56,013 nt of DNA from NCBI GenBank assembly GCA_013178155.1, contig JABLXH010000028.1, positions 1-56,013 of the forward strand. Reading direction: 5' to 3'. The first letter of the stretch is position 1. Every line of letters starts with the position of its first letter. The DNA comes from Armatimonadota bacterium (GTDB lineage Bacteria; Armatimonadota; Zipacnadia; Zipacnadales; UBA11051). The notes beneath the pieces were generated by a model that saw nothing but the letters and a program-made list of their open reading frames with translations, did no database searches and had not been told where the DNA came from. Positions 26,523-29,940 of the stretch are shown in pieces. The position numbers were made by a program, and so were the translations under genes.

Positions 26523-28304
26523 TCAGAAGCTGCTGACACAGGCACTGTGGCAGGCGGAGTGGCACGCGGAATGGCACACGCAGGCACTGTGACAGGCGCT
26601 GTGACAGGCGGAATGCACGCACGCCGAGTGGCAAGCATCATGGACGCAGGCGCTGTGGCAAGCCGAATGACAGGCGCTGTGACAGGCATCATAGCCAACG
26701 GCCTGAGCCACGCGCTCCGCGATCCCCTCTGCACCGTCAGCGACGACGGCTGCGGTGCTCTCCACCTTCTGGGCCACGCCCCGCGCCATGTCCTCCACCG
26801 CGGTCGCCAGGCTGGTGGCGCCCCGCGCCAGCGGTGTGTCCGCGTACCCGCTGCGGGCAGCAACCTGATCCAGCCCCGCATCGCGCCAGCGACTCTCGTA
26901 GTCATGTGCGATGACAATCCAGGGAAGATTCTCGTTCCAGCCCTGGGGCGACCGCGTCCACTCGGCGCCCTTGCGGGCTTCCTCCCAGCGGCGCTCGATC
27001 TCCGCCTCGTACTTGCGCCGTGTCGCCTGCCGGTCGGCATTCCACAACTTGCCCTGCAATGACCGCGCCACGGCCTCCAGCACATAGGGTACGCTGGCCT
27101 TGTCGAGAGTGCCGTCTTCGGTCAGGGCCGTAAGCAGCACTTTCTCGTAGTCGGCCAACCCCGCGGCTTCTGGCTGCAGTACCTCCAGTTGCAGCGGCCG
27201 GCGGTTGACCACATTGACGACCCCTCTTGCCGCCAGGTACATCACGATGAGTGTCAGCACCTTCGCAGTGTCGCCCAGATACATGGCGGCTTCGATGGCG
27301 CTAAGGTCCGGAACCGTCCCCTTGGTCTCGAAGCTCTCGACCTCGATCTCTGGTGCCTCATACAGCTTCTTCAGCGGTGGTGGCTGGTGGCCGAACTGAT
27401 AAAGCTTTACCAGAGCAACAACGACGAGGCCCAGGATGAGCAGAAACAGCAACACCTGCCAGAAGCTGAAGGCACCCCGGTACTCCTCGCGTTGTGATGG
27501 CGGCAGAACCGGCGCCTTCGTGCCCTGCGGATGCCGGCGCACATCCCGAAGCTGGGACGCAGTCGCGAGGGTCAGGCCTTTGGCCGGCGCGTAGAACTTG
27601 AAGGCTGGACTCTGGTTGAGCGGTGTGTTCCCACGCTTGAGCTGGATGGATAGCCAGACCTTGCCCGACCTCTCATCAGGGGTTGGGTAGTAGTCCACAT
27701 CGTCCCACTGACCGAAGCTCCCGGCTTTCTCGGTCTGGATGCCAATCCCCCGGACGACCGCCTCGGTGACCTGCTCCGGTCGGGTGATGCCCGCTGGCAG
27801 CGCCCAGGGGGTAATGAGGTCAACGCGCTGGAGACGCACCGGCAGATTCCACGCCGGCGGCGCCCAGCTCACCGCGACCATCTCCTGGCCGTTGCGGCTG
27901 GTGCGGTCCATGATGGGCTCGGTGGCCTGGTAGCGAACCTTGAGGGTGTAGACCTCGCCCCGCCGGGTGGTGGTACCAAGGCTGACGCTGTAGTCGCCCC
28001 CCCCTTTGGACGTCAGCGATGCGTTGACGGGCTGGCCATCCGGTCCCCCCACGCACAAAGAGGAGCTGACCAGCCGATGGGACGGGGTCAGCTTCCCGAG
28101 GTTCCTGATCTGCGAGCGTCCATTCTCGAGTTCGCGGAAGGTGAGCCAGTAGTCCACCTGGGGTATGCCGTCCGAGCCGATGACCAGGCGGCTGCGGGCC
28201 TCCTCTATCTCTACCGGCGCTTGCGCCTGCGCCTGACCCGTACCAGCGACCAACGCGGCAATGACGAGTGCAACTGCTGCAACCGCTCGGAGATGGCCCT
28301 GCAT
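26523..28304 (-). CDS. DUF2207-like membrane protein with Cys/His-rich repeat tail
   Basis: A 593-aa protein. Residues 1-28 form a signal peptide ([18 protein letters not shown]). Residues 30-270 form a beta-rich ectodomain similar in layout to DUF2207 proteins. One membrane helix (about 280-304, [20 protein letters not shown]) follows. A cytosolic helical domain contains [20 protein letters not shown] and [20 protein letters not shown]. An amphipathic helix precedes the tail (541-593), which is nine CHSA units broken by CV, HDA and HSA, with 13 Cys and 11 His. The tail should be cytosolic. It follows the SPFH gene by 39 bases and shares its strand. Family assignment to DUF2207 is moderate; I know of no name for this tail. 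It may bind zinc or another metal. Confidence 0.75.
   Translation of the reverse strand: [593 protein letters not shown]
26526..26684 (-). repeat. Tandem 12-bp repeat encoding Cys-His-Ser-Ala units
   Basis: The last 53 codons of the membrane protein gene encode nine CHSA tetrapeptides. Serine is encoded by AGC, AGT, TCG and TCC, histidine by CAC and CAT, and alanine by GCC, GCG and GCT. This variation means the repeat is kept at the protein level rather than being a recent DNA slippage product. Confidence 0.9.
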
Positions 28305-28343
28305 GTCGCTGTTGACTCTCCCTCGTGGCCCCTGGCGCGGCCG

Positions 28344-29372
28344 CTAGCTCACGGCCTTGCCACACTCCGGGCAGAACTTTGCCCCGGTCGGTAGCGGCCT
28401 GCCACACTCGGCGCAGAACCCGCCAGCCAGGGCGGCGCCGCACTGAGGGCAGAACTTCGCTCCCGCCGGGACGGGATGCCCGGCAGGGCACTTGGCTTCC
28501 GCCTCGGCGGAGCTCGGGCTGCTCATTGCGTCCTTCATCGCCCCGGCCATGGCGGCGCCCATGGCCACACCGGCCCCCATGCCGACACCCGTGGCCACGG
28601 CGTCACTGCCCCCGCCGCCCGCCGAGGGCATGTCACCGATGGCCTGAGCGGTCTGGAACTGCAGGTAACGGCGAGTGTCGCCAACCGCCTCCATTCCCGC
28701 ACGCTCGTCGATGAGTTTCATGACTTCCTCGGGCGGGGTGATGGAGGTGACCAGAAAGTCTACCAGTTCGAGGCCATAGTTACGGAAGTCCTCGGCCAGT
28801 CGGGTCTGGGCGGCAGCCGCGATGCTCTCCATCTGCAGCGGCAAGTCGAGGACCGTCCTGAGCTGCTCTCCCAGCGCCACCTGGAACCGCGCCACGATGA
28901 AGTCCCGCAGCCAGTCCACAACGCTCTCCGTGTCATAGCGGTTCTCCGTCCCCACGACTTCGTTGACGAAGAGCTGGGGATCGCCAACCCGGCAGGTATA
29001 CGCGCCATTGGCGCCCAGGCGCACCATGCTTAGCTCTGCGTCGCGGAAGATAATGGGCGACGGCGTGCCCCATTTGAGGCCCGTGAAGGTGCGCATGTTG
29101 ACGAAGTAGATCTCGGCCTGGAAGGGGGTCTCGCCGCCGAAGGGGAGATTGATCAGCCGTTGCAGCAACGGAATGTTGGCGGTCTCCAGGGTGTGCCTGC
29201 CCGGCCCCAGTACATCGAGGGCCTTGCCGTCGCGGAAAAACACGGCAACCTGGCTCTCGCGCACCGTCAGTTGGGCGCCCAGGCGGATAGTGCCCGGCCC
29301 GTAGGTCGGCCAGCGATGCACGATCTCGTTGCCGCTCACATCCTGCCACTCAATGACATCCAGAAGATCCAT
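28344..29372 (-). CDS. SPFH-domain protein with C-terminal zinc ribbons (YdjI-like)
   Basis: A 342-aa soluble protein. Residues 1-230 form an SPFH/band-7-like domain (SQVAVFFRDGKALDVLGPG, WGTPSPIIFRDAELSMVRLG and GLELVDFLVTSITPPEEV). A Gly/Ala/Met-rich linker (251-285) joins it to zinc ribbons: Cys295, His299, Cys308, Cys311, then Cys320, Cys323, Cys334, Cys337 (FCAECGRPLPTGAKFCPECG). Relatives include B. subtilis YdjI, which works with PspA and two membrane proteins in an envelope-stress module. There is no membrane helix, so it likely joins the membrane through partners. The ATG has GGGAGG seven bases upstream. Neighbours: a coiled-coil protein upstream and the CHSA membrane protein downstream. 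Confidence 0.9.
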   Translation of the reverse strand: MDLLDVIEWQDVSGNEIVHRWPTYGPGTIRLGAQLTVRESQVAVFFRDGKALDVLGPGRHTLETANIPLLQRLINLPFGGETPFQAEIYFVNMRTFTGLKWGTPSPIIFRDAELSMVRLGANGAYTCRVGDPQLFVNEVVGTENRYDTESVVDWLRDFIVARFQVALGEQLRTVLDLPLQMESIAAAAQTRLAEDFRNYGLELVDFLVTSITPPEEVMKLIDERAGMEAVGDTRRYLQFQTAQAIGDMPSAGGGGSDAVATGVGMGAGVAMGAAMAGAMKDAMSSPSSAEAEAKCPAGHPVPAGAKFCPQCGAALAGGFCAECGRPLPTGAKFCPECGKAVS

Positions 29373-29421
29373 GAACGTGCCTCCCTGGCATGTAGCCGTC
29401 GGCTAATGCGTGCCGCGCCCA

Positions 29422-29940
29422 TCACGAACCCAGTTGCGCTGCCGCCTCCTGGCGCTGGTCCACCACGTGATCCAGGTTGTCGAGAGCGTCGGCCAGTGCA
29501 GAAACCGCCTCGGCGCGCTGGTCCGCCGCGCTCTTTCCTACCTGTGCAGCGGCTGCCACGACGGCAGCAACGTGCTGTTCCAGGGCCACATCGAACTCGT
29601 AGAGGCGGTCCAGCTCCGCGGCCTCGATCTTCAGGGCGTCAAAGAAGCCGGCATAGCCATAGCTGGCATGCTCAATACGGTCACGGGTGCGGACTAGCCG
29701 TCGGCCAAGGCGGTTGAGGTCGGTTATCGGCTTGAACTGGCCCTCGGCCGAGAGCTTGGCCTGGGCACGGGACAACTGCTCGCTGGCGCTGCTCAGAAGC
29801 CCCACCAGGTGCATGCGCAGGAGCTTGTCAGCATCTCTGCGGTCTTCCTTCTCCTGGTACCCCTTGAAACCAGGGATCGTCTCCATCAGTGTCTCCAGCG
29901 CTGTCCGCCCATCGCGAACCTGGTCACGAAGGTCACCCAT
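29422..29940 (-). CDS. Predicted all-helical cytosolic protein upstream of the SPFH gene
   Basis: A 172-aa helical protein with no membrane segment. Striking motifs are ETIPGFKGYQEKEDRRDADK (residues 20-39), LRRLVRTRDRI-like basic helices, and HASYGYAGFFDALKI followed by ELDRLYEFDVALEQHV. I recall similar unnamed proteins but cannot give a family. The ATG (29940) has AGGTG six bases upstream; a longer reading from 29997 begins with a low-complexity stretch and is less likely. It is the first gene of the three-gene module. It could play the role that PspA plays in the comparable Bacillus module, but it is not a recognisable PspA homologue. Confidence 0.7.
   Translation of the reverse strand: MGDLRDQVRDGRTALETLMETIPGFKGYQEKEDRRDADKLLRMHLVGLLSSASEQLSRAQAKLSAEGQFKPITDLNRLGRRLVRTRDRIEHASYGYAGFFDALKIEAAELDRLYEFDVALEQHVAAVVAAAAQVGKSAADQRAEAVSALADALDNLDHVVDQRQEAAAQLGS

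Follow-up and report, generated by a model that had tools for sequence, protein, structure and literature searches.

An SPFH and zinc-ribbon gene pair beside a DUF2207-like membrane protein with a conserved cysteine-repeat tail and a linked radical SAM enzyme in Armatimonadota

Three neighbouring genes on the minus strand

The window analyzed here is a stretch of 56,013 nucleotides from an Armatimonadota bacterium (GenBank assembly GCA_013178155.1, contig JABLXH010000028.1, positions 1 to 56,013 of the forward strand). It contains three neighbouring minus-strand ORFs, hereafter genes A, B, and C, separated by only 49 bp (A/B) and 39 bp (B/C), which confirmed an initial annotation of three adjacent same-strand genes at this place. 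Gene A (29422..29940) encodes a soluble helical-bundle protein of 172 aa without a transmembrane (TM) segment by hydropathy, which is a distant relative of the NCBIfam family LIMLP_15305. Gene B (28344..29372) encodes a 342-aa SPFH (Band_7_1) protein with a C-terminal double zinc ribbon; the zinc-ribbon region, at about residues 294 to 340 (28353..28493), contains seven Cys, and the Pfam DZR match spans residues 298 to 338. Gene C (26523..28304) encodes a DUF2207-like protein of 593 aa that comprises a signal peptide, a beta-rich outer part, one TM segment predicted by a hydropathy scan (residues 284 to 302; 27399..27455), an inner part, and a Cys tail. This tail is a CHSA repeat of 56 codons (26526..26693) and is the proposed site of modification by a radical SAM enzyme. 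Gene calls were simple longest-ORF choices for every genome scanned, so some starts are too early (e.g., L035 and L254 to L257).

Protein A is a helical protein with two conserved motifs

The initial annotation had singled out two motifs in A, and both proved to be real. In a 27-row alignment of diverse sequences, GFKGYxEKE (residues 24 to 32; 29845..29871, minus strand) was conserved within a longer, nearly invariant IPGFxGYxEKExRRxADK motif, and YGYAGFFD (residues 94 to 101; 29638..29661, minus strand) was likewise nearly invariant. The structure model of A was all-helical (pLDDT, 85.5), with roughly four long helices packed into a compact bundle. A matched the Leptospira family LIMLP_15305 along almost all of its length (E, 6.9e-14) but scored far under the equivalog cut-off (52.1 versus 210 bits); judged by sequence, A is only a homologue of this family and not an equivalog. 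Within the open-licence literature, LIMLP_15305 is mentioned solely in one paper's table. The family model for A, NF047596, had 0 matches in 14 control genomes (the controls named for the PspA search run in parallel include B. subtilis). A Foldseek search with the A model returned nothing at an E value of ≤0.001. The best VIA match among those listed was IncA, with a Z score of 14.1, a level common for helical bundles; PspA/ESCRT-III chains were absent among the listed matches, which is no evidence of a different fold.

A and B form a recurrent, widespread unit

Protein B matched Pfam PF13421 (Band_7_1) with an E value of 1.9e-60 (204.6 bits; cut-off, 24) and PF12773 (DZR) with an E value of 3.9e-11 (43.4 bits; cut-off, 27.3). 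Both domains exceeded the curated cut-offs, in agreement with its earlier description as an SPFH protein with seven zinc-ribbon Cys. Among 80 named-genome loci chosen by A alone, 75 contained B, and in 70 of these B lay within 150 bp of A. According to the record titles, A-B loci span many bacterial groups as well as archaea. A and B are a recurrent and widespread unit, an old pair with broad conservation that probably organizes patches of the cell membrane. We propose that they would form a cytosolic two-protein unit, in which B, as a YdjI-like SPFH/zinc-ribbon protein, would oligomerize at the membrane and A would be its dedicated helical-bundle partner, distinct from PspA. This SPFH unit is very old, its partner protein A is ultraconserved, and it occurs in bacteria and archaea; it may offer a route to the role of SPFH/zinc-ribbon proteins without PspA.

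Several neighbours of A-B recurred in other genomes. In Acidobacteria, a Toastrack/LiaG-like gene with a zinc ribbon sits between A and B; genome G009 carries NfeD1b and a second SPFH protein near A-B; and a full DUF2207 protein is encoded near A-B in Chloroflexota and in one member of the Actinomycetota. These neighbours (Toastrack/LiaG-like, NfeD1b, SPFH, and DUF2207) are of the kinds tied to membrane stress in the Psp literature. In relatives, A and B are often separated by an ORF that, by eye, looked like a DUF4178 protein, but we rejected this identity, as there was no such Pfam match. Cluster c67, a candidate for another SPFH protein, proved to be an epimerase, and cluster c43 had no Pfam match.

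Profile comparison shows no relationship between A and PspA

A PspA profile search found no PspA in the 80 named loci or in the stretches of 33 relatives that carry A. Of the 36 relatives with A, 17 had no PspA match. The window's own genome encodes a PspA on another contig. Thus, the term "PspA-free," used in the initial annotation, is true of the locus but not of the cell. The related idea that A replaces PspA was not borne out: A had no match to PF04012 in Pfam, and its comparison with 20 PspA sequences of relatives gave an hhalign probability of 1.7%, which ruled out A as a stand-in for PspA by sequence.

These results bear on the possibility of a PspA-free envelope-stress module, with A in the place of PspA, B as a YdjI-like recruiter, and C as a receptor replacing YdjG/H. 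The model for such a module is pspA-ydjGHI of B. subtilis, in which YdjI is reported to connect PspA to the membrane together with two membrane proteins (PMC8581546). B shares the SPFH and zinc-ribbon layout of YdjI, and the window likewise has a helical-protein gene before B and a membrane-protein gene after it. The lack of PspA in A loci and in about half of the A-bearing relatives is consistent with this module, as are the Toastrack, NfeD/SPFH, and DUF2207 neighbours. However, besides its lack of relationship to PspA by profile, A was modelled as a compact bundle, the cell has a PspA of its own, and C occurs in just two A-B loci. Moreover, C is DUF2207-like and not of the YdjG/H type; in a test for YdjG/YdjH-type partners applied to locus protein C, we found no TPM or YpeB-type Pfam match. 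We therefore regard such a module as somewhat unlikely and retain A as a putative dedicated partner of B.

C is DUF2207-like and ends in a conserved cysteine tail

C gave a weak match to DUF2207_C (E, 0.0057; 16.8 bits versus a cut-off of 33) and remained under the Pfam cut-off for PF09972 and PF20990. L255, a C homologue whose tail is of the same type, passed the DUF2207 N-terminal model PF09972 (E, 1.2e-7; 32.5 versus 24.4 bits), so the wider C family is DUF2207-like. The topology of C was derived from hydropathy, a scan that gave no clear TM segment mid-protein in L256. A single-sequence fold prediction of C had a pLDDT of 48 and a pTM of 0.29, and its helix/strand layout does not contradict the hydropathy. 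C resembles DUF2207 proteins in having an outer domain, a TM segment, an inner domain, and a low-complexity tail, but it falls below the Pfam cut-off, carries a Cys tail where DUF2207 has a Gly tail, and apparently misses, by hydropathy, the inner TM pair of the DUF2207 proteins L010 and L020. One DUF2207 protein is SMU.243 of S. mutans, whose mutant is reported to show sensitivity to peroxide and methyl viologen as well as to acid (PMC10457818).

The final 56 residues of C (CHSACHSAC...) are kept almost residue for residue across genera, whereas their codons drift. Between the window and G009, the 56 tail codons comprise 30 identical, 26 synonymous, and 0 nonsynonymous pairs, with an identity of 44% over the whole protein. 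The tail pattern occurred in 4 of 41 relatives and in 13 of 291 phylum genomes, in proteins of 525 to 644 aa; a reversed control pattern occurred in 0 of 291, so the CHSA tail is far from chance. A sister class of tails ends in CACACAGCACACACAGGGR, has no His, and has related enzymes encoded alongside; its CACACA pattern was found in 37 of 291 phylum genomes. The initial annotation had suggested that the tail of C may bind metal. A Cys/His tail is indeed present, but it marks more than a possible metal site, namely, a separate conserved system of tail and radical SAM enzyme. A search of the open-licence literature, a scope outside which most subscription papers fall, gave no account of such tail systems or of this combination.

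A radical SAM enzyme is linked to the tail

An enzyme combining an RRE with radical SAM and SPASM domains is encoded in all 13 tail-bearing genomes and adjoins the tail gene in 12 of them. The exception is the window's genome, where the enzyme gene lies on another contig, C38, which also carries genes for a coiled-coil protein and an FMN reductase alongside it. The domains of the enzyme each scored over the cut-off (PqqD, 5.2e-8; Radical_SAM, 2.5e-29; SPASM, 1.7e-9). In the 4 tail-bearing genomes among the 41 relatives, the enzyme was 60 to 69% identical to that of the window's genome, and the next best was at 39%. It lies within about 1.1 kb of the tail gene in G001, G009, and G014 and directly beside it in 9 of 9 further tail-bearing phylum genomes. 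A single clade (support, 1.0) unites the 13 enzymes, each of which retains CxxxCxxC.

Radical SAM RiPP systems include sactipeptides, ranthipeptides, His-Xaa-Ser systems, and ACGX repeat systems. The window family likewise combines an RRE, radical SAM, and SPASM enzyme with a Cys-repeat sequence, and as in a RiPP system, this dedicated RRE-bearing enzyme is encoded with its candidate precursor, adjacent in 12 of 13 cases and elsewhere in the genome for the window. It differs in that the repeat forms the end of a membrane protein and not a short leader-core peptide. The linkage and the domains suggest that C probably has an enzyme dedicated to the chemical modification of its tail; this tail would be a protein-borne substrate of the PqqD-like/radical SAM/SPASM enzyme on C38.

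No NCBIfam equivalog reached its cut-off for the enzyme. The best curated matches were haem-type radical SAM enzymes (AhbD, 158.9 bits versus a cut-off of 500), which makes a nonpeptide substrate possible. Alternatively, the tail could be an unmodified region binding metal, Fe-S, or haem, with the radical SAM enzyme acting on something else. The richness of the tail in Cys and His agrees with this alternative, as do the matches to haem-synthesis enzymes, far below cut-off as they are. The C-x3-C-H units of the repeat may also be reminiscent of a cytochrome c haem site in stretched form. Still, the enzyme has a PqqD-type peptide-recognition domain and follows the tail gene in nearly every tail-bearing genome, and the sister tails, devoid of His, are nonetheless accompanied by a related enzyme. 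An unmodified tail is thus unlikely, and we favour a tail modified by the linked enzyme. The strict repeats would provide a simple handle for finding what the enzyme makes, by coexpression and mass spectrometry.

C is joined to A-B in two genera

The initial annotation had proposed A, B, and C as one candidate module. The co-occurrence check upheld A-B as strongly recurrent, but among the A-bearing relatives examined, A-B-C occurred together in no other place than the window and one sister genus, G001, and a general A-B-C system is not supported. Neither A nor B was present at any of the 9 further CHSA loci, and phmmer found no relative of C in the named A-B loci. Since A-B and the tail system are mostly apart, only two related genera suggest that they act jointly.

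C might have arrived by chance next to an A-B operon with which it has no connection, so that A, B, and C would not work together, as its absence from other A-B loci and the absence of A-B from other C loci would suggest. Against this stand the tight spacing in the window and the same gene order in G001, where six genes lie in one row: A, B, C, FMN reductase, enzyme, and coiled-coil protein. Of the 33 stretches of relatives that carry A, 14 also have a homologue of the C38-type FMN reductase downstream of B, so this gene ties both gene sets. We consider a chance association rather doubtful. The best reading of these sequences is that C is a DUF2207-like membrane protein with a cytosolic, radical-SAM-modified Cys tail, joined to A-B in two genera.

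The row of six genes in G001 points to a likely working unit composed of C as outer sensor, its modified tail, and the A-B platform. As a whole, an A-B SPFH unit combined with C and its radical-SAM-modified tail as a sensing unit is, in our estimation, a reasonably probable explanation. It builds on what was observed of the genes present and their linkage, of the selection acting on the tail, and of the enzyme domains. Within it, we infer the modification of the tail, the topology of C, its sensing role, and its physical contact with A-B: the outer domain of C would sense some condition of the envelope, its modified Cys tail at the inner side of the membrane would respond to redox state or metal, and this tail would be held or read by the SPFH platform of A and B. 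A more specific version is tentative and perhaps improbable, namely, that a peptide-modifying radical SAM enzyme permanently decorates the inner tail of a receptor (CHSA/CACACA) to give a redox or metal switch that is read by A-B, in a PspA-independent envelope sensor. If true, radical-SAM peptide chemistry would serve to make a permanent portion of a membrane protein, and the view of what such enzymes are for would widen.

A comparable arrangement has been put forward for TIGR04222 membrane proteins with Cys-rich tails, which have been proposed as substrates of MNIO enzymes (PMC12452194). C is likewise a multidomain membrane protein with a low-complexity Cys tail that is proposed to be enzyme modified. 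In contrast, the enzyme linked to CHSA tails is of the RRE-radical SAM-SPASM type and not an MNIO, and the tails in question consist of strictly repeated CHSA or CACACA units and are predicted to lie on the inner face. C itself had no match to TIGR04222, and one CHSA homologue, that of G009, matched this model weakly (E, 0.00036; 20.3 bits versus the NCBIfam cut-off of 43).

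The A-B gene pair

The initial annotation had described three adjacent same-strand ORFs as a candidate PspA-free membrane-stress module resembling that of Bacillus subtilis, in which YdjI recruits PspA with YdjG/H (excerpts of PMC8581546). We recovered the three ORFs, all on the minus strand and separated by 49 and 39 bp: A (29422-29940; 172 aa), B (28344-29372; 342 aa), and C (26523-28304; 593 aa), a membrane protein gene whose product matched DUF2207_C weakly in Pfam. As claimed, B encodes an SPFH protein with seven zinc-ribbon cysteines, since a Band_7_1-type SPFH domain and a C-terminal double zinc ribbon both scored over the curated Pfam cut-offs and seven Cys were counted there. 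The observation was thus confirmed, and its interpretation was partly supported: A and B form a unit, but A is not, by profile comparison, a stand-in for PspA.

Using A alone as the query, we scanned named bacterial and archaeal genomes, which returned 118 relatives, and kept 80 loci. A homologue of B was present in 75 of the 80 and started at most 150 bp from the end of A in 70. As only A was used to choose the loci, their selection does not account for this link. Record titles of the A loci included Chloroflexota, Acidobacteriota, Bathyarchaeota and other archaea, Coatesbacteria, Zixibacteria, Edwardsbacteria, Armatimonadetes, Actinomycetota, and Bacillota. Among the remaining ten loci, four from Acidobacteria (L002, L013, L014, and L017) have A and B separated by one or two c42 cluster genes, of which the scanned member (L013) combines a zinc ribbon with Toastrack DUF4097; in L035, the ORF call of B overlaps A; and B was not seen in L007 (where ~1 kb of downstream DNA is left), L012, L024, L046, and L070. 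Within the window's order, A was present in 36 of 41 related genomes, and a B-profile match was found in 31 of 33 fetched A-bearing stretches, that of L164 being possibly a second SPFH protein and not B. In genome G009, the genes run A, NfeD1b, a second SPFH protein, and B (L132:2739-7200). Recurrent synteny therefore holds for A and B, whereas C is joined to them in two genera only. The A-B pair is a solid SPFH unit, undescribed in the literature searched.

Relatives repeatedly carry, between A and B, an ORF of ~140 to 160 aa that has no Pfam match (L140, L141, L143, L146, L148, L150, L151, L156, L160, and others). Cluster c33 (~620 to 1012 aa) lies near A-B in L006, L008, L010, L020, L042, and L050; its scanned member (L010) is a full DUF2207 protein, and most of these loci also hold c18, a small zinc-ribbon membrane protein.

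Relation of A to PspA

A had been proposed to take the place of PspA. A profile comparison with 20 PspA sequences from relatives gave a probability of 1.7%, so that by profile A is unrelated to PspA. No Pfam family was found for A, which in NCBIfam is distantly related to the LIMLP_15305 family (E 6.9e-14, 52 bits versus a cut-off of 210); NF047596, the model of the A family, had no match in 14 control genomes. A 27-row alignment displayed the conserved motif IPGFxGYxEKExRRxADK and an invariant YGYAGFFD. The predicted structure consists of helices throughout, four of them long (pLDDT 85.5, pTM 0.77). No PDB chain matched it at a Foldseek E of ≤0.001, and the best second-look alignment was to IncA (Z 14.1, rmsd 2.7 over 140 residues), a score that unrelated helical bundles also attain. 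A is thus conserved as the partner of a YdjI-like SPFH protein and, by sequence, is not PspA.

The proposed absence of PspA held for the A loci examined, since the PspA profile found nothing in the 80 named loci or in the relatives' A-bearing stretches. Its sole match was the one PspA locus of the window's genome, on another contig (G000:C27:2174-2806), so a PspA encoded elsewhere may be the true partner in this cell; the fetched stretch of that locus (L161) had no SPFH match. By profile, PspA was found in 22 of the 41 relatives, and 17 of the 36 A-bearing genomes gave no match, some being drafts (for instance, G008, G013, and G026 are 93 to 95% complete). Judged from gene content, the A-B pair is kept without need of PspA. 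The own PspA gene (L001, contig C27) is adjoined on the same strand by a second helical protein gene.

A Cys-rich tail paired with a radical SAM enzyme

C carries a signal peptide and a single strong transmembrane segment (residues 284-302), with no inner transmembrane pair, so that, from hydropathy, its tail is predicted to lie on the inner side of the membrane. In contrast, the DUF2207 proteins of the A-B loci L010 and L020 showed an inner pair in the same scan. C also differs from the TIGR04222 membrane proteins, whose Cys-rich tails, proposed as MNIO substrates, are predicted to be periplasmic (excerpts of PMC12452194).

The C-terminal 56 residues of C form a Cys-His-Ser-Ala repeat (CHSA tail). 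The CHSACHSAC DNA pattern occurred in 4 of the 41 relatives (reversed control, 0), and the tail pattern occurred in 13 of 291 genomes of the phylum, with two endings, ...CVSSF and ...CVSGG/CVSGS/CVSGN with last His or Arg. Among the window, G001, and G009, the tail varies by 0 or 1 of 56 residues, while 26 to 29 of 56 codons differ synonymously and the whole C proteins of G001 and G009 are 61% and 44% identical to that of the window. Because the residues are near-constant while codons and the rest of the protein diverge, selection on the peptide, rather than recent DNA copying, preserves the tail.

In G001 (downstream of C) and in G009 (adjacent to C), a gene encodes a protein that combines PqqD (RRE-like), Radical_SAM, and SPASM domains. 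Its counterpart in the window's genome, on contig C38, is 61% identical to the G009 fragment (PqqD, 5.2e-8; Radical_SAM, 2.5e-29; SPASM, 1.7e-9); against NCBIfam, no equivalog cut-off was reached, the best being AhbD with 158.9 versus 500 bits. Among the 41 relatives, enzymes of 60 to 69% identity were limited to G000 (the window's own genome), G001, G009, and G014, the same four that carry the tail; the next best had 39%. In all nine further tail genomes, the tail formed the C-terminal end of a C-like membrane protein (525 to 644 aa), and the enzyme gene always followed directly on the same strand, with a gap of ≤112 bp or overlapping ORF calls; no A, B, or PspA was found in any of these nine loci. 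Tail and enzyme are linked within ~1.1 kb in 12 of 13 genomes, the exception being the window's. Compared with 19 related sister-class enzymes, all 13 group as a single clade (support 1.0), and each of the 13 retains CxxxCxxC.

A sister class with a CACACA tail

The enzymes that share 32 to 39% identity, from other relatives, pointed to a second, order-wide system, in which the enzyme is followed first by another SPASM-type protein and then by a ~600-aa C-like membrane protein terminating in CACACAGCACACACAGGGR or in a somewhat shorter version of it. The tail ORF was on the same strand in 14 of 20 fetched stretches (L189-L208); the other six (L195, L196, L200, L203, L204, and L206) end at contig edges. 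The DNA pattern of this tail occurred in 37 of the 291 phylum genomes, 33 of them among the 41 genomes of the window's order, and its reversed control in none. The window's genome and G001 carry the CHSA tail only, and G009 and G014 carry both. Since the sister proteins matched the CHSA head profile weakly (E 1e-3 to 1e-7), a common origin of the heads is no more than likely.

Each of the three component types is already known: SPFH modules, RRE-radical SAM enzymes, and Cys-tailed membrane proteins. A Psp survey describes PspA with band-7 and TPM domains as well as PspA-free Toastrack systems (excerpts of PMC11237479), and an ESCRT survey mentions SPFH/zinc-ribbon proteins in archaeal systems (excerpts of PMC10936438). 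Excerpts of these two papers, PMC8581546, and PMC12452194 hold no description of the A family or of the CHSA and CACACA systems, and a literature query with the literal tail strings returned no matching paper. The tail/radical SAM system surpasses the A-B pair in novelty.

Connection of A-B with the tail system

In G001, the genes run A, B, C, FMN reductase, enzyme, and coiled-coil protein. The window's genome has the same set split between A-B-C on contig C133 and, on C38 (stretch L168), the FMN reductase (5003-5569), the enzyme (1803-3392), and the coiled-coil protein (585-1796). Coiled-coil homologues also occur in the enzyme stretches of G014, G289, and G290 (L133, L251, and L252), and B is followed on the same strand, within ~1.6 kb, by an FMN reductase homologue in 14 of the 33 A-bearing relative stretches (L134, L135, L139-L141, L143-L146, L148, L150, L151, L156, and L160). 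These neighbors tie the two gene sets together.

We propose, in decreasing order of certainty, that A and B would act together at the membrane, as their gene linkage suggests; that the tail of C would be a substrate of the RRE-radical SAM-SPASM enzyme, given their near-perfect co-occurrence, linkage, and selection; that the modified tail, on the inner face, could be a redox- or metal-responsive element below an outer sensing domain, at which the sensitivity of a Streptococcus mutans DUF2207 mutant to oxidative and acid stress (excerpts of PMC10457818) may hint; and that A-B would hold or read C in two genera.

Directly after C, on the same strand at 26124-26396, lies a 90-aa ORF that, by eye, we take to be like half of a UPF0016/GDT1-type cation transporter.
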